From NCBI GenBank assembly GCA_015492645.1, contig WGER01000022.1:1-52225 (forward strand): a stretch of DNA of 52,225 nt, given 5' to 3'. Position numbers and translations under genes: made by a program. Shown piece by piece: positions 26,979-34,054 of this stretch. Position 1 is the first letter of the stretch. Every line of letters begins with the position of its first letter. The notes below the pieces were generated by a model. That model did not search any database and was not told where the DNA came from. It saw only the letters and a program-made list of their open reading frames with translations. The stretch is from Nitrospirota bacterium (GTDB lineage: Bacteria; Nitrospirota; Thermodesulfovibrionia; Thermodesulfovibrionales; JdFR-85).

Positions 26979-27377
26979 TTAAAATTTATAAAGTTTGAGT
27001 TTTGAAGTTCTTGATATATGAACAAAATGTTTGTCAAAAGTAAATAGTGCAAGATTATTTTCAATACATACCTGTGCAATCAGAAGGTCTATAGTTGGTA
27101 TAGTATATCCTTTCTTCTTTAATGAAAAACCCAGGTATCCTGCCTTTACAAAGGTATCCAGAGAAGGTTCCACCACATTTAATACCCTGCAAAGGTCTTC
27201 TACTATTTTTAATTCCTTACGATCCTTTGCTCCCTGTATGAGTTCCTGAACAATTACTCCAGTAGTACATGCATTATCAGATAGCAAAAGATCTTCCAGT
27301 TTTTCCTTTAAATTGCTTTGAGGATTTTTCAAAAATTCAATCCATACACAGGTATCAACCAGAACCCTATCTTCCAT
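26979..27377 (-). CDS. vapC: VapC-type PIN-domain ribonuclease toxin
   Basis: A 132-residue PIN protein with acidic residues D8 (RVLVDTCVW), E45 (VIVQELIQG), D97 (IPTIDLLIA) and D114 (LFTFDKHF). It overlaps the upstream antitoxin by 11 bp. Third vapBC pair of the window and intact. Confidence 0.88.
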   Translation of the reverse strand: MEDRVLVDTCVWIEFLKNPQSNLKEKLEDLLLSDNACTTGVIVQELIQGAKDRKELKIVEDLCRVLNVVEPSLDTFVKAGYLGFSLKKKGYTIPTIDLLIAQVCIENNLALFTFDKHFVHISRTSKLKLYKF

Positions 27378-27561
27378 GCCTTATTTTATCCCAATCCTCT
27401 GTCATCTGGAGTTTCCCTGCATGGGAAAGTATTTTCTCAATCCTCAATCTCCTTACATACTCATTAAGAGCCTTCACAACTGTCTCTGTTTTGGTTTTAC
27501 ATTTTGAGAGTCTCTGGGCTTCTCTTAAAAGTTCTTCAGGTATGTTTAATGTGGTCTTCAT
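27367..27561 (-). CDS. vapB: VapB-type antitoxin
   Basis: A 64-residue ribbon-helix-helix antitoxin (MKTTLNIPEELLREAQRLS) with a KTKTETVVKALNEYV helix and a C-tail (MTEDWDKIRHGR). It overlaps vapC by 11 bp. AAAGGAGATG supplies the ribosome site and a palindromic operator lies immediately upstream. Confidence 0.85.
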   Translation of the reverse strand: MKTTLNIPEELLREAQRLSKCKTKTETVVKALNEYVRRLRIEKILSHAGKLQMTEDWDKIRHGR

Positions 27562-27652: not shown

Positions 27653-28147
27653 TTAATCAATCTTTTTAAACATCTCCTTCTTTGCACCACAGATGGGGCA
27701 TGTGTCAGGTGCTGAGCCCTCAACGGTGTTACCACAGACCTGGCATACATAGTAGTCAACCTCTTCGTTTTTACCGAGGTTTTCAAGGGCCTTTCTGTAG
27801 AGTTCTGCATGGATCTTTTCCACCTCATTGGCAAAGACAAAGGTCCTCCTTGCCTCGTCGTTTCCCTCTGCCTCTGCATCTTCGATCATCTGGGGATACA
27901 TATTCTGAAACTCGTAGGACTCCCCTGAGATTGCGGCCTCAAGGTTCTCCTTTGTGGATTTAATACCGCCGAGGACCCTCAGGTGGTTATGGGCATGCAC
28001 TGTCTCTGCCTCTGCTGCAGCACGGAAGAGTTTTGCCACCTGCGGGTAACCCTCCTCCTCGGCCTTCTTTGCAAAGGCCAGGTATTTCCTGTTTGCCTGA
28101 GACTCACCAGCAAATGCCTCCTGCAGGTTCTTCTCAGTCCTTGACAT
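27653..28147 (-). CDS. rbr: Rubrerythrin
   Basis: A 164-residue peroxide reductase of anaerobes. The N-terminal four-helix bundle has the diiron motifs FAGESQANRKY, EAETVHAHNHL and NEVEKIHAEL. The C-terminal rubredoxin domain has CQVCG and CPICGA. It takes electrons from rubredoxin-type partners and turns H2O2 into water in the cytosol. Last gene of the perR-led cluster. Confidence 0.96.
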   Translation of the reverse strand: MSRTEKNLQEAFAGESQANRKYLAFAKKAEEEGYPQVAKLFRAAAEAETVHAHNHLRVLGGIKSTKENLEAAISGESYEFQNMYPQMIEDAEAEGNDEARRTFVFANEVEKIHAELYRKALENLGKNEEVDYYVCQVCGNTVEGSAPDTCPICGAKKEMFKKID

Positions 28148-28200: not shown

Positions 28201-28329
28201 CTATTCTTCCCCGATCAACTCCATCGGCTGGCCACAGCAGACCAGTTCTCCACCTCCGACCTTTGTTACCACCACCTCATTGCCACAGACATTACAGCGA
28301 TACTTTTCACCAGCCTTCTTTACTGCCAT
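28201..28329 (-). CDS. dsr: Desulforedoxin-like protein
   Basis: A 42-residue protein reading MAVKKAGEKYRCNVCGNEVV then VTKVGGGELVCCGQPMELIGEE. The CxxC and CC cysteines are those of desulforedoxin and the N-terminal domain of desulfoferrodoxin, which bind one Fe(SCys)4. GAGGTGAGAGG precedes the ATG. As a separate gene beside a one-domain superoxide reductase it probably acts as small electron carrier. Confidence 0.88.
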   Translation of the reverse strand: MAVKKAGEKYRCNVCGNEVVVTKVGGGELVCCGQPMELIGEE

Positions 28330-28390
28330 CCTCTCACCTCCTCTAATAAAATATTCTTTTGAGATCACATAGTCAGTGATACTACTGAGA

Positions 28391-28798
28391 CTATCTCATC
28401 TTCTCCTTCAAGAACCTGCCGAGTGCTTTGTCCACTTTACTGATATGATCCATCCACCATTTACCAAGGAAGGCATTGGTTTCTATAAATATCAAAAGCC
28501 TCTGCCCCGAGTCATGGAGATCTTTCTTTAATTTTTGATAGGATTCTATGAAATATCTATGTTGCCTTATATGTACATCTGCTTCAGGATATTCGTATTG
28601 CTGCATCAATTTCTCCTCTGAAGAAAAATGTTCAATAACGTACTGACCAAGGAAGTCAAAGATCTCGTCAATCGCGTCTCTCCCCTTACCCTCCTTCGCA
28701 GCATCTCTGAGCATATTTATTCTTCTGAATAGTTCTTTGTGTTGATTATCAATCTCTGCTACACCTGTTTCTAATTCCTCAGTCCATTCAAGGGGCAT
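28391..28798 (-). CDS. Bacteriohemerythrin
   Basis: A 135-residue diiron O2-binding protein with the family ligands: H20 (IDNQHKELF), H57/E61 region (VIEHFSSEEKLM), HIRQHRYF and WWMDHIS. Single-domain hemerythrins of anaerobes bind O2 in the cytosol. Its place in the cluster suggests O2 capture or delivery to FprA. Confidence 0.92.
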   Translation of the reverse strand: MPLEWTEELETGVAEIDNQHKELFRRINMLRDAAKEGKGRDAIDEIFDFLGQYVIEHFSSEEKLMQQYEYPEADVHIRQHRYFIESYQKLKKDLHDSGQRLLIFIETNAFLGKWWMDHISKVDKALGRFLKEKMR

Positions 28799-28845: not shown

Positions 28846-28871
28846 ATCCCGGGGGCTCCTGCCCCCGGGAT
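28846..28871 (-). terminator. GC-rich hairpin after the selenoprotein peroxiredoxin gene
   Basis: An 11-bp perfect stem (atcccgggggc / gcccccgggat) with loop tcct begins 7 bp past the stop. No T-run follows on the minus strand, so it may act as partial terminator or RNA stabiliser between cluster genes. Confidence 0.55.
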
Positions 28872-28878
28872 TACATTG

Positions 28879-29502
28879 TTAATCCTGAAGGGCCTCATAG
28901 ACCCTGCCCACGAGGTCAGCCGCTGGCTTTAAGGTCCTGTCTCCTTCATCACGCCACTGGGCCGGGCATGCCTCCTCTGGGTGTTTTGACATGTAGATAT
29001 TTGCCTTTATCTTCCTCAGGATCTCATCCACACTCCTTCCCAGGTTGTAAAAGTTCACCTCTGAGTTCATTATAACCCCCTCAGGATTAATAATAAATGT
29101 ACCTCTCAGGGCGAGCCCTGTCTCCTCATCATAGACCCCAAACAACCGTGAGACCCTGCCCGTTGGATCTGCAGCCATACTAAAACGGACCCCCTCAAGT
29201 AACTTCTCATCCCTCTGCCATGCAAGGTGGACAAACTGGGTGTCAGTACTCACTGTGACTATATCCGCATTCAGTTTCTTAAACTCCTCCTGCTGCTCTG
29301 CCAGAGCAGCCATCTCTGTGGCTCACACAAAGGTGAAATCAGCAGGATAGAAAAACAACACCGTCCAGCGATTCTTCTTTTTCTGTTCAGCCATCGAGAA
29401 CTTTCCAAAATCGCCCTTCTCTGGCTCATAGGTATCCATCTCAAAATCAGGCACGCTCTGCCCTACCCGCAGGCCACAACATACCTCTTCAAATGTGGTC
29501 AT
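28879..29502 (-). CDS. Peroxiredoxin, probable selenoprotein (UGA at peroxidatic position)
   Basis: Read through one in-frame TGA (29325-29323), the gene gives a 207-residue AhpC/Prx-type peroxidase: MTTFEEVCCGLRVGQSVPDF, then FFYPADFTFVUATEMAALA, with U60 exactly where the peroxidatic Cys of PADFTFVCPTE lies, then GTFIINPEGVI and a resolving-side Cys in EEACPAQW. A SECIS-like hairpin follows the UGA at the right distance. It reduces peroxides, here presumably with rubredoxin or thioredoxin-type donors. Annotators that read TGA as stop will call only 28879-29313 and lose the active site. It lies between superoxide reductase and bacteriohemerythrin. Confidence 0.88.
29292..29310 (-). promoter_or_regulatory. 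Bacterial SECIS-like hairpin within the peroxiredoxin gene
   Basis: On the minus strand GCTGCTCT-GGC-AGAGCAGC is a perfect 8-bp stem with a 3-nt loop starting with G. The loop begins 20 nt after the UGA. Known bacterial SECIS elements have a small apical loop with a G in its first two bases some 16-37 nt after the UGA. Confidence 0.75.
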
Positions 29503-29565
29503 ACTTTACCTCCCGAAAATTTTTTCTCTGGGTCAAAGACCCCTTCATGCTGTAAAAAGACTCTA

Positions 29566-29940
29566 CTACTCCGTAATGGTTATCTCCTTTGTGGCCTCCC
29601 ATGTGCCGTGGAGATTACACCTCTCAAGGACCCTGAGGGTCGATGTCCTGTGTTTTCCTCCCTTAACTACAGTTATTGTCACCTCAGGTTGTACAAAGAC
29701 AGGTGTAAGGTCCACCCTTGCATAGAGATTCTGTCCTGAATAGAGTTCAACCCACTGGATGTGGTGTCCTTCCTCATTTGGGTGAGGAATCTCTCCCACC
29801 TTGATCTTCACCTGAAAGGGCTCTCCTGCCTTCACCGTGTCAGGACACTCAATCACAGGGGTGTGCTTCTTTTCAAGTTCGGTCTTGTTTGCCGGGTCCG
29901 CCGGCCTGTTGATGCCACAGAATAGACTCTTTTCTGCCAT
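29566..29940 (-). CDS. sor: Superoxide reductase (neelaredoxin type)
   Basis: A 124-residue class II superoxide reductase, converting superoxide to peroxide at a His4Cys iron. Visible ligands are H-containing KKHTPVIECP, GEIPHPNEEGHHIQW and RCNLHGTWE (Cys then His). It lacks the N-terminal desulforedoxin domain, which is supplied by the separate gene at 28201. The ATG at 29940 follows AGAGGAGG; a longer frame to 29976 adds only basic residues. The peroxide it makes would be removed by the neighbouring peroxiredoxin and rubrerythrin. Confidence 0.92.
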   Translation of the reverse strand: MAEKSLFCGINRPADPANKTELEKKHTPVIECPDTVKAGEPFQVKIKVGEIPHPNEEGHHIQWVELYSGQNLYARVDLTPVFVQPEVTITVVKGGKHRTSTLRVLERCNLHGTWEATKEITITE

Positions 29941-30363: not shown

Positions 30364-31581
30364 TTATTGAAAGTTTTTATGGTATTCCTTTACAGCCCTA
30401 GCAAACTGTCTCCCAAACTCATATGCCTGGTCCATGTCTTCCATCTGTGGGCGGTACTGAACCTGAAAACCTGGTTCAACCACCTCGAGTTTCATCGCCT
30501 TAAACTGTTCATAGAGCCATTTAACGGCACCACCACCCCAGCCGTAACTGCCAAAGGCGGCAGCAATACGGTTCGTGGGCCTCAAACCCCGCAGATGGGT
30601 TATAAATTCAGCCACCGAGGGAAAGACCTCATTGTTCAGGGTTGGTGAGCCCACCAGAAGTCCCCTGGACTTCCAGAACTCTGTTATAGCCACTGACATC
30701 GGTGTGGCCCTCAGTTTTATCACCTGACAGTCCACACCTTCATCTCTCACACCCTGCATAATAGGCTGGGTGAGTATCTCTGTGCTGTGCCACATGGTGT
30801 CATAGATTATCGCAACCCTGAGGTTGGTCTTTCCTTCAGCCATATCTAAGTACATCTCCACGGGCCTCATCGGCTCTTTACGCCATATTACACCGTGATC
30901 AGGGGCTATCATTTCTATATCAAGTTCCATCTCCTGTAATTGTTTGATCTTTGACTTTATCAATTTCCCGAAGGGCATCAGGATATTTGCATAGTAGTCT
31001 ATTACTGCGTTCTCCAGTTCCGCATGGGAGGCACACTCCACAAACTCATCGTCAAATCTTGCCGTGGTGGCGAGATGCTGTCCAAAGGCATCCTGAGAGA
31101 TGAGGAGTCTGGCCTCCTTCACATAGGTCATCATGCTGTCGGGCCAGTGTAGCATCGGTGTCTCAATAAACATCAATGTATGTTTGCCGATGTTCAATTC
31201 ATCACCTGTCTTCACCTCTCTCACTTTCCAGCGAGATGTATCAAAGAACCTCTGCATCCCCTGATGTCCCCTCTTTGTGGTGTAAATGGTTGCATCAGGA
31301 CAGAGTTCCATATAGGCACCGAGTGCACCCATGTGGTCGTTCTCGATATGGTTCACAATGATGTTCTTGATCTCCTTGGGGTCAATCACTGACTTAAGCG
31401 TGGCTATCCCCACCTCTGCAAAGTCGTACTTAACAGTGTCAAGGAGAGTCACGTCCCTGTCAATAATCAGATAGTTGTTGTAGGTAGTACCATGAGGAGT
31501 AACATACCCATGAAAGTCTCTTACTGCCCAGTCAATTGCACCCACCCAATAGATATCAGGTTTGATCTGTACAGCCTTCAT
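30364..31581 (-). CDS. fprA: A-type flavoprotein FprA (rubredoxin:oxygen oxidoreductase)
   Basis: A 405-residue flavodiiron protein that reduces O2 (or NO) to water with electrons from rubredoxin. The metallo-beta-lactamase half has the diiron ligands [25 protein letters not shown] and APDHGVIW. The flavodoxin half starts near residue 255 with [12 protein letters not shown] and holds [11 protein letters not shown] and [10 protein letters not shown] for FMN. Cytosolic. It is followed at once by the rubredoxin gene. Confidence 0.96.
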
Positions 31582-31613: not shown

Positions 31614-32108
31614 TTATCCTCCCTCAACAATGCTCAATTCTTCCCACATGAACCAGTTACCGGTGTCCTCAAGAAAGTTGTAGGTGTTGTTAAGTAATTG
31701 ATAGTGTCTCTCTTCCTCCTTGGTGAGGACCTCAAAGAGTCTCTTCTCCTTTTCATCCTCTGCCTCCCGGGCCGCCTTCTGATAGTACTCATATCCCTGT
31801 TTCTCCATCTCAAGGGCCACCCTGATAGCCTCTTTCTCGTCGGTAGTAGCAGTTATCCTCTGCATCATCTGGTCCTTCAGATCTGAAAAGACCGTCCTCA
31901 CATCACCGAGGCACTGTACACGGGGATCGATATCAAGCCCCTTCAATATCTCCTCAAGCATCCTCAGGTGTCTTGCCTCATCCCTGATAAATCCCTCAAA
32001 CATCCTTCTTCCAAGGGGATGGGATGTCTTCTGGGCCGCCTTCTTGTAAAACTTCATGGCATCCGTCTCCATCCGGATTGCCACCTCAACTGCCTTGGTA
32101 AGTGCCAT
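31614..32108 (-). CDS. Ferritin-like diiron protein (rubrerythrin-type bundle)
   Basis: A 164-residue four-helix bundle with two ExxH-type sites: METDAMKFYKKA...DEARHLRML and MEKQGYEYYQKA...EEERHYQLL. There is no rubredoxin domain. Related proteins act as peroxidases or iron-handling ferritin-like proteins. The ATG at 32108 has GGGAGG 6 nt upstream and overlaps the stop of the disrupted small gene as TGATG. Part of the perR-led cluster. Confidence 0.85.
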   Translation of the reverse strand: MALTKAVEVAIRMETDAMKFYKKAAQKTSHPLGRRMFEGFIRDEARHLRMLEEILKGLDIDPRVQCLGDVRTVFSDLKDQMMQRITATTDEKEAIRVALEMEKQGYEYYQKAAREAEDEKEKRLFEVLTKEEERHYQLLNNTYNFLEDTGNWFMWEELSIVEGG

Positions 32109-32242
32109 CACAAACCTCCCGATGCCTCTTTTACCTCAAAAACATATGCCTCGTCCACTTCGCCCATCACAATCATCTGCTTCCCTTAACAGATCGGTAC
32201 GGTATCGCCCTCGTTCAACATCCATACCTTCTTCTTTGCCAT
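32108..32242 (-). pseudogene. Small conserved-looking gene with an internal stop
   Basis: The frame MAKKKVWMLNEGDTVPIC meets TAA (32188-32186) and continues GKQMIVMGEVDEAYVFEVKE to a TGA that overlaps the next ATG as TGATG. GGAGA precedes the first ATG. The tight coupling shows that the whole 44-residue frame was once translated. Restart at an internal Met (MIVMGEV) could still serve coupling. TAA excludes selenocysteine. Confidence 0.55.
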
Positions 32243-32280: not shown

Positions 32281-32697
32281 TCAGCCCTCAAGCAGACCTG
32301 AGAAGTCCCCGTGGTGCTCCTCCTCGTCTGCCAGTATCTGCTCAAAGAGCCTCTTTGTGGTGTAGTCCTTCTCTGAGTCTGCCATCTCTATTATCTGCCT
32401 GTAAAGTTCAATCGCCTCTTCTTCCGCCTGTTTATCTATCTCGATCATCTCCTTGAGGTTTTCTCCTACTGCTATAGGAGTTGGTTTTGTTGTGGGTCTT
32501 CCACCTAAGTAGGCAAGCCTTTCGGCGATCTCCTCTGCGTGCTTCATCTCAACTATAGCAATCTTCTTAAAAATACCCTTCACAGGTTCCGCATTCAGAC
32601 CTGTTGCAAGGACATGCTGCCACATATACTGCACTGAGACCTGAAGTTCCCTCGCTATCGCCTGGTTGAGCATCTCCTTCAACTTATCTGATGCCAT
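32281..32697 (-). CDS. Bacterioferritin-like ferritin
   Basis: A 138-residue ferritin-like protein: ARELQVSVQYMWQHVLATG, VEMKHAEEIAERLAYLGG, EEEAIELYRQIIEMA and ADEEEHHGDF give the Glu and His diiron ligands of the bacterioferritin family. It is slightly shorter than typical bacterioferritin (about 155). It likely oxidises or stores Fe2+ and so limits Fenton chemistry. AAAAAGGAGG precedes the start. Confidence 0.9.
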   Translation of the reverse strand: MASDKLKEMLNQAIARELQVSVQYMWQHVLATGLNAEPVKGIFKKIAIVEMKHAEEIAERLAYLGGRPTTKPTPIAVGENLKEMIEIDKQAEEEAIELYRQIIEMADSEKDYTTKRLFEQILADEEEHHGDFSGLLEG

Positions 32698-32877: not shown

Positions 32878-33042
32878 TCATGCCTCCTTTTTCAGTTCTG
32901 CCCCACAGCCAGGGCAATGAGGCTCCTCTTCATCAGACCAGACCTCCACCTCAGCACCACAGACCTCACATACCAGATCCATAGGCACTGGCCTCTTCAC
33001 CTCAGCACAGGCTGGCCTTATGATTTCCCTATCAGTCTGCAT
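32878..33042 (-). CDS. Small zinc-ribbon protein
   Basis: A 54-residue protein with a ribbon CEVCGAEVEVWSDEEEPHCP then GCGAEL and one earlier Cys (RPACAEVKRP). It overlaps the preceding gene by 11 bp and the next start follows one base after its stop. Likely metal-binding; function unknown. Confidence 0.7.
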   Translation of the reverse strand: MQTDREIIRPACAEVKRPVPMDLVCEVCGAEVEVWSDEEEPHCPGCGAELKKEA

Positions 33043-33475
33043 TTGCCTTCCTCCAGCCTTCTCTTTTAAGACGCTCCATCCTCTCTATACCCCATGTCTT
33101 TATCCTCTCAAGATATGCCTTGGGGTCCACCCTCGCCATGGCCACAATCTCTTCCCTTTCTCTGGCGCTGTCTATATGATCACCAGGATAGATCCCACGC
33201 CATGTGGCATAGCCCTCATCAAAAAGGACCTCTGGGGTCAGGTTTTTGGTTAAAAGATGAGGTGTCTTGGTGGCTGAAAATCTCACCACATCCATATCAT
33301 ACTCAATCACCCATCCATTGTCAGAAATCATCGTCTCAGGGTCAAACTTAATCTCTCTTGAACACTCAGGACAGTATAGTCTTGAGATTACCTCAGGAGG
33401 CATTATATCGTCCCTGAAGTTAAAACTCGCCTCCTTCTGGCCACACTCACACCTCTTGGAATACTCCATACACAT
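33032..33475 (-). CDS. Unknown Cys-rich protein of the oxygen-defence cluster
   Basis: A 147-residue soluble protein. The N-terminus has CECGQKEASFNFRDDIMP then VISRLYCPECSRE, a CxC...CxxC metal site, followed by an alpha/beta domain (GWVIEYDMDVVRF; YATWRGIYPGDH). ATG 33475 is chosen for its AGGAGG at 7 nt; a GTG at 33481 is less likely. Fixed between an RCKP rubredoxin-like peptide and two zinc ribbons, so probably co-regulated by PerR. No family recognised. Confidence 0.7.
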   Translation of the reverse strand: MCMEYSKRCECGQKEASFNFRDDIMPPEVISRLYCPECSREIKFDPETMISDNGWVIEYDMDVVRFSATKTPHLLTKNLTPEVLFDEGYATWRGIYPGDHIDSAREREEIVAMARVDPKAYLERIKTWGIERMERLKREGWRKANAD

Positions 33476-33487
33476 CCTCACACCTCC

Positions 33488-33610: not shown

Positions 33611-34054
33611 TCATGCCTCTTTATTCCGGGCCTCTCCATGAGAGGCATTTCTACACTTACTGCAGAGTCCGTAGAACTCTATATGATTACCAAGGATAAC
33701 AAAATCCTTCCTTGCCTCTTCTGGCACAGAGACATCAAACTCCATAAAGACATCAAGGACATTTCTACACCTGAGACATATCAGATGATGATGGGGCTCT
33801 ATGTTCGGGTCATACCTCTTCTTCATCGGGTCGATGCTGAGTTCCATTATCAGGCCCCTCTTTCTGAGTGTCTCAAGGGTGTTGTAGACCGTCGCACGAG
33901 ACATGGTAGGAAACCTCTTCTTCACATGCCTGTAGATATCCTCTGCCGAGGGGTGCTCCCGATTACCATCCAGGTACTCGAGAATTGCGAGCCTCTGAGG
34001 GGTCATCTTCAAACCTATCGCCTTGTATCTGTCTATCATCTTTTTTAGAACCAT
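33611..34054 (-). CDS. perR: PerR/Fur-family peroxide-responsive repressor
   Basis: A 147-residue Fur-family regulator. The winged helix holds RATVYNTLETLRKRGLI. The structural zinc site is CLRC (C93, C96) and CSKC (C131, C134). The regulatory metal ligands H34, D82, H88/H90 and D101 match PerR, where Asp at the last position replaces Fur's Glu. Iron-bound PerR is oxidised at His by peroxide and lets go of DNA. It heads the minus-strand cluster, and two operator-like palindromes lie at its promoter. Confidence 0.9.
   Translation of the reverse strand: MVLKKMIDRYKAIGLKMTPQRLAILEYLDGNREHPSAEDIYRHVKKRFPTMSRATVYNTLETLRKRGLIMELSIDPMKKRYDPNIEPHHHLICLRCRNVLDVFMEFDVSVPEEARKDFVILGNHIEFYGLCSKCRNASHGEARNKEA

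Follow-up and report, generated by a model that had tools for sequence, protein, structure and literature searches.

An AhpC-type peroxiredoxin gene with a conserved in-frame UGA and a SECIS hairpin in a Nitrospirota bacterium

Introduction

On the reverse strand of a contig from a Nitrospirota bacterium (GenBank assembly GCA_015492645.1, contig WGER01000022.1), a frame that resembles a peroxiredoxin gene carries a TGA where the catalytic cysteine codon is expected. Does this codon end translation, or is it read as selenocysteine (Sec)? We analysed the whole 52,225-nt stretch of DNA, called the window below, together with the rest of the host genome and relatives of the gene. The observation made in the initial annotation of the window was confirmed as real, and its interpretation as a Sec-containing peroxiredoxin was supported. 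The gene almost certainly encodes an AhpC-type, typical 2-Cys peroxiredoxin with a peroxidatic Sec, which, judging from the sequence, would be inserted by means of a SECIS hairpin within the coding sequence.

Results and Discussion

Reading frame and protein

The initial annotation had described a frame open on both sides of one TGA at codon 60, and translation of the window showed its coordinates and motif to be correct: UGA60 was the sole internal stop of the 207-codon frame. With the UGA taken as a residue, the active-site motif was PADFTFV-U-ATE (U60). This had been presented as a replacement of the sequence PADFTFVCPTE. The exchange of Cys for Sec held, with the correction that Pro was also changed to Ala (CPTE to UATE).

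The protein with the UGA read through matched Pfam AhpC-TSA (E = 4e-37). Solved bacterial AhpC structures aligned with it at E of about 1e-50, placing UGA60 on their peroxidatic Cys. An AlphaFold2 model had the AhpC fold (pLDDT 83.6), and Salmonella AhpC was superposed on the model by Foldseek with an rmsd of about 1.6 Å. The pair Cys8-Cys9 was present in 34 of the 50 Sec rows of the alignment and in most Cys rows, and in none of the rows of PrxU, a Sec-containing peroxiredoxin considered below. When the host genome, a draft assembly of 91 contigs with an estimated completeness of 100%, was searched family by family, this was the sole AhpC-type gene found. The coordinates of the gene, of its elements and of the surrounding genes are listed in Table 1.

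Table 1. Features of the peroxiredoxin locus, in coordinates of the window.
Feature	Position	Strand	Evidence or remark
Predicted Sec-containing AhpC-type peroxiredoxin gene	28879..29502	(-)	207 codons + stop, ATG at 29502; translation
In-frame UGA, codon 60, peroxidatic position, read here as Sec	29325-29323	(-)	Conserved UGA; alignment to AhpC peroxidatic Cys
SECIS hairpin GCUGCUCU-GGC-AGAGCAGC, inside coding sequence	29292..29310	(-)	Fold, covariation, frozen silent sites
Cys179, resolving cysteine	28966..28968	(-)	Invariant in AhpC-type Sec and Cys rows covering the position
Cys8-Cys9 pair, near N-terminus	29476..29481	(-)	Conserved in many relatives
Ribosome binding site GGGAGG, 6 nt 5′ of ATG	29509..29514	(-)	Read directly from sequence
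Fur-family regulator (PerR-like), first cluster gene	33611..34054	(-)	Pfam PF01475, E 6e-29
Two ferritin-like/rubrerythrin genes	31614-32111, 32281-32697	(-)	Pfam PF02915, PF00210
FprA/ROO-type flavodiiron protein	30364..31581	(-)	Pfam ODP + Flavodoxin_1
Superoxide reductase (desulfoferrodoxin domain), adjoining gene upstream	29566..29940	(-)	Pfam PF01880, E 6e-32
Hemerythrin-domain protein	28391..28798	(-)	Pfam PF01814
Desulforedoxin-like protein	28201..28338	(-)	Pfam PF06397
Rubrerythrin with rubredoxin domain	27653..28147	(-)	Pfam PF02915 + RUBY_RBDX

Hairpin downstream of the UGA

The perfect 8-bp stem with a GGC loop reported in the initial annotation was confirmed as eight Watson-Crick pairs. 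The stem begins 12 nt and the loop 20 nt after UGA60, so the distance of 20 nt given there fits the loop. Bacterial SECIS elements are described as having an apical loop of 3-9 nt, an upper stem of 4-16 bp, a G within the first two loop positions, a UGA-to-loop distance of 16-37 nt and an energy of at most -7.5 kcal/mol (PMC13188914). The hairpin falls within every one of these ranges, with a loop of 3 nt (GGC), a stem of 8 bp, a distance of 20 nt and a free energy of -13.1 kcal/mol for the 30-nt stretch around it.

Stems of at least 8 pairs at SECIS spacing were found for 12 of the 2251 TGA triplets of the window. Of the 16 long two-part frames around a TGA, none but the peroxiredoxin frame had at least 7 pairs. 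Compared with shuffles of the single sequence, the fold of the hairpin was moderately unusual (z = -1.73). As this single-sequence test is weak, comparative tests, described below, were used in its place.

Selenocysteine machinery of the host

The search for Sec machinery suggested in the initial annotation yielded all of its components: selA (633 bits), selB (386 bits), selD (317 bits, with an in-frame UGA of its own) and a tRNA-Sec with anticodon UCA, G73 and an encoded CCA. Two fdhA-type genes with an in-frame UGA were also present. One of them has a hairpin that shares its CTCTGGCAGAG core and GGC loop with that of the peroxiredoxin; the loop is GGUCU in the other fdhA-type hairpin and GUU in the selD hairpin.

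The host also has a tRNA-Cys with anticodon GCA and U73 (L073 1501-1592; G000:C19:14446-14537) that is selC*-like, scoring 63 bits against the tRNA-Sec model. A class of selC*-like tRNA-Cys was previously reported in Nitrospirae (PMC7609411). Its occurrence here lends something to the idea, put forward for some Desulfobacterales, that a tRNA-Sec-like selC* tRNA-Cys reads UGA as Cys, but for UGA60 we regard such decoding as very improbable. Cys insertion by this tRNA was rejected on its anticodon, which is GCA and not UCA. Among the above-threshold tRNA-Sec matches, which were scanned with ARAGORN, the only UCA tRNA has G73 and the full set of tRNA-Sec features, and selA and selD are present in the genome. 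For decoding as Sec, SelB carrying Sec-tRNA-Sec(UCA) would bind the hairpin loop, resulting in Sec at UGA60 instead of termination.

Conservation of the UGA and the hairpin

Relatives were taken from genome contigs and from the genomes of the host's class. The AhpC-type branch comprised 73 distinct genes with TGA at codon 60 and 46 with TGC or TGT, so the alignment of homologues proposed earlier did recover Cys at this codon. An Ala codon directly followed the UGA in all 73 UGA genes. The stem kept 7-8 of its 8 pairs in 73 of 73 UGA genes and had 6 or fewer in 46 of 46 Cys genes, which lack the hairpin; CUGGCAG was found at the hairpin loop in 69 of the 73 UGA genes. In an analysis of 47 distinct TGA sequences, 97.9% of cells were paired, two-sided compensatory changes were seen at 4 of the 8 stem pairs, and none of 500 shuffles matched the observed pairing.

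Silent sites within the hairpin were nearly fixed in Sec genes (Leu CTG in 50 of 50, Ala GCA in 46 of 47, Ala GCT in 43 of 47), whereas the same codons varied freely in Cys genes, with entropies of 2.2, 1.9 and 1.5 bits. The constraint is therefore on the RNA and not on the protein.

Two Cys genes with the motif CATE (L095 1134 (-) and L130 2126 (-)) had decayed hairpins with 6 of 8 pairs, which are probably SECIS relics. The source genome of the former (G017) gave no selA match and no tRNA-Sec above the cut-off.

These comparisons bear on whether UGA60 mostly terminates translation, so that the product is a fragment of 59 residues or an independent protein of 144 residues beginning at the ATG at 29313. 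Sec insertion is generally inefficient, and exactly these two ORFs are expected from gene callers, in agreement with the earlier statement that the gene would be truncated in standard annotation. The ATG at 29313, however, is not conserved, nearly all relatives having Phe (TTT or TTC) there; each half would be an incomplete fold, and both the UGA and the hairpin are conserved. Predominant termination thus has very little probability. Less credible still, to a practically negligible degree, is the idea that a Cys-type ahpC owes its TGA to a sequencing error or to a nonsense mutation of recent origin. TGA does differ from TGC or TGT by a single base, and the assembly is a draft of 91 contigs. 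However, a further 72 distinct genes from independent assemblies share UGA60, the downstream frame is conserved and the hairpin is under RNA-level constraint, which refutes this reading and removes the objection of sequencing error named in the initial annotation.

The Sec reading also agrees with the distribution of selA. Among 230 genomes of the class, 93 had the peroxiredoxin UGA and 31 a Cys gene; selA was present in 91 of the former and 23 of the latter (Fisher p = 2e-4), and both selA-less genomes with the UGA contained tRNA-Sec. The Sec trait was found in 203 of the 230 genomes, and tRNA-Sec also in some selA-less drafts. With the trait so widespread in the class, this co-occurrence is supportive but not decisive.

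Probable switching between selenocysteine and cysteine

Cys homologues were of two kinds: those with CPTE form a sister group, and those with CATE lie inside the Sec group. A first tree of 87 rows (AU p = 0.07 for a single Sec clade) left the number of reversions open. Another 40 loci were then added and the active-site/SECIS segment was omitted, resulting in a tree of 109 genes. In this larger tree, the CPTE group was cleanly separate (support 99/96). The Sec label required six state changes, all forced by well-supported branches; with CPTE as the outgroup, these were one gain and five losses of Sec. A single Sec clade, a group defined after inspection of a tree, was rejected in the larger tree (AU p = 0.0024). 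For example, the CATE gene of genome G158 and the Sec gene of G160, two genomes of the same genus, were sisters (100/95).

In the same-genus genome G057 (L122, G057:C1:115000-126000; L105), a CPTE Cys AhpC occupied the same cluster position. It is likely to be a replacement of the Sec form.

On balance, we favour a history in which the Sec-AhpC branch, which is uncurated in NCBIfam, arose once from CPTE Cys AhpC as the UATE Sec form, spread among Nitrospirota related to Thermodesulfovibrio, reached Planctomycetota and delta-proteobacterial lineages, and went back from UATE to CATE Cys on at least five occasions, keeping the Sec-associated Ala. A survey in 2006 counted zero Sec-to-Cys and five Cys-to-Sec events for Prx (PMC1794560), and a 2026 review describes Sec-to-Cys changes as rare and mostly confined to FdhA and SelD (PMC13188914). 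If the history is true, the return of a bacterial thiol peroxidase from Sec to Cys would be unusually well resolved in this branch, and such reversals would run against the view of their rarity and restriction to FdhA and SelD. Most PrxU members of the class show the change of Pro to Ala beside Sec in parallel, a hint that the residue following Sec is constrained.

Close Sec and Cys relatives of one enzyme, sometimes in the same neighbourhood and with the SECIS decaying after Sec loss, represent a natural experiment that would permit measuring the benefit of Sec to the peroxidase of an anaerobe.

Gene neighbourhood and proposed function

The gene lies in a same-strand cluster in the order Fur/PerR-family regulator, small zinc-ribbon proteins, two ferritin-like proteins, flavodiiron protein, superoxide reductase, peroxiredoxin, hemerythrin, desulforedoxin and rubrerythrin. 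Among the flanked loci, 38 had the Fur-family regulator in synteny, a superoxide reductase gene was beside the peroxiredoxin in many relatives, and the order superoxide reductase-peroxiredoxin-desulforedoxin-rubrerythrin recurred among them. The cluster probably serves an anaerobe's defence against oxygen and peroxide under the control of the Fur/PerR-family regulator. It had been described as led by PerR: a Fur-family regulator does lead it, and Pfam does not distinguish PerR from Fur. The further suggestion that the gene may encode the main cytosolic peroxidase is only partly supported: the search of the genome gave no second AhpC-type gene, but rubrerythrins are encoded next to it.

Other elements were noted in and near the cluster. 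A 149-aa protein (33032-33481 (-)) had no Pfam match and was in the cluster in at least 21 relatives' loci. Directly past the peroxiredoxin stop is a 9-bp perfect G+C inverted repeat (28848-28869) with no clear T run, possibly a terminator; scans for promoters and terminators gave consensus matches only. A pair of VapB antitoxin and PIN-domain toxin genes (26979-27561 (-)) lies just downstream of the cluster.

By analogy with AhpC, the Sec60 selenolate would attack a hydroperoxide and become selenenic acid, which Cys179 of the partner subunit would resolve to a selenenylsulfide; a flavin disulfide reductase would then regenerate Sec60. A good candidate for this reductase is an AhpF-like protein of 543 aa, whose N-terminus is PDO/glutaredoxin-like (CPYC) and whose C-terminus is that of a thioredoxin reductase. 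It scored 300 bits with the AhpF model, below the cut-off, and 365 bits with TRX_reduct, above the cut-off. Its gene and selD, whose UGA has a hairpin, are divergent neighbours (L081/L149; G000:C82:106424-108986).

Comparison with known selenoprotein peroxiredoxins

Sec-containing peroxiredoxins have been known since PrxU of Eubacterium acidaminophilum (Sohling 2001, as cited in PMC13188914), and 43 Prx selenoprotein genes were found in Sargasso Sea data (PMC1088965). Our literature search, which misses most subscription papers, found nothing specific on the Sec-AhpC branch in Nitrospirota. Standard annotation would split or discard the gene, so the AhpC-type peroxidase of the entire class is likely to be overlooked or labelled as a pseudogene. 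With a curated model that reads through the UGA, the annotation of dozens of genomes would be put right.

The gene shares with PrxU (NF040737) the TxxU motif, the in-frame UGA, anaerobic hosts and an AhpC/Prx1-type fold. PrxU genes differ in that they are longer (about 244 aa), are 42-46% identical to it, lack an aligned resolving Cys and have another hairpin. PrxU is represented in the host's class too: PrxU-like genes (L115-L119) contain a UGA, mostly within UATE and not UPTE, and a hairpin, for example UUUCAGC-AGUU-GCUGAAA. With AhpC (TIGR03137), the gene shares the fold, the invariant peroxidatic and resolving positions and the motif PxxxTxxC/U; it differs in having Sec for Cys, followed by Ala for Pro. 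It scored 189.5 bits with NF040737 (cut-off 270), for which a genuine PrxU of the class scored 424, and 202.7 bits with TIGR03137 (cut-off 272), for which the Cys relative L105 was also below, at 218.8. Falling below both cut-offs while a class PrxU passes, the gene represents a distinct, uncurated branch.

The hairpin resembles the bacterial SECIS element in its early loop G, 8-bp stem, 20-nt spacing and low free energy, and has no important difference from it within the published constraints. Compared by motif and SECIS type, the gene agrees with the Prx family (TxxU) of the surveys by Zhang and Gladyshev (PMC1088965, PMC1794560, PMC13188914), of which the 2006 survey has no Sec-to-Cys reversion for Prx. 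The kinship to Sec peroxiredoxins proposed in the initial annotation therefore stood, but the label Prx-like did not, since the literature separates Prx (TxxU), to which this gene belongs, from Prx-like (UxxC). As Sec peroxiredoxins have been known since 2001, what is new in Sec-AhpC is the branch, uncurated and separate from PrxU, and not the kind of protein.
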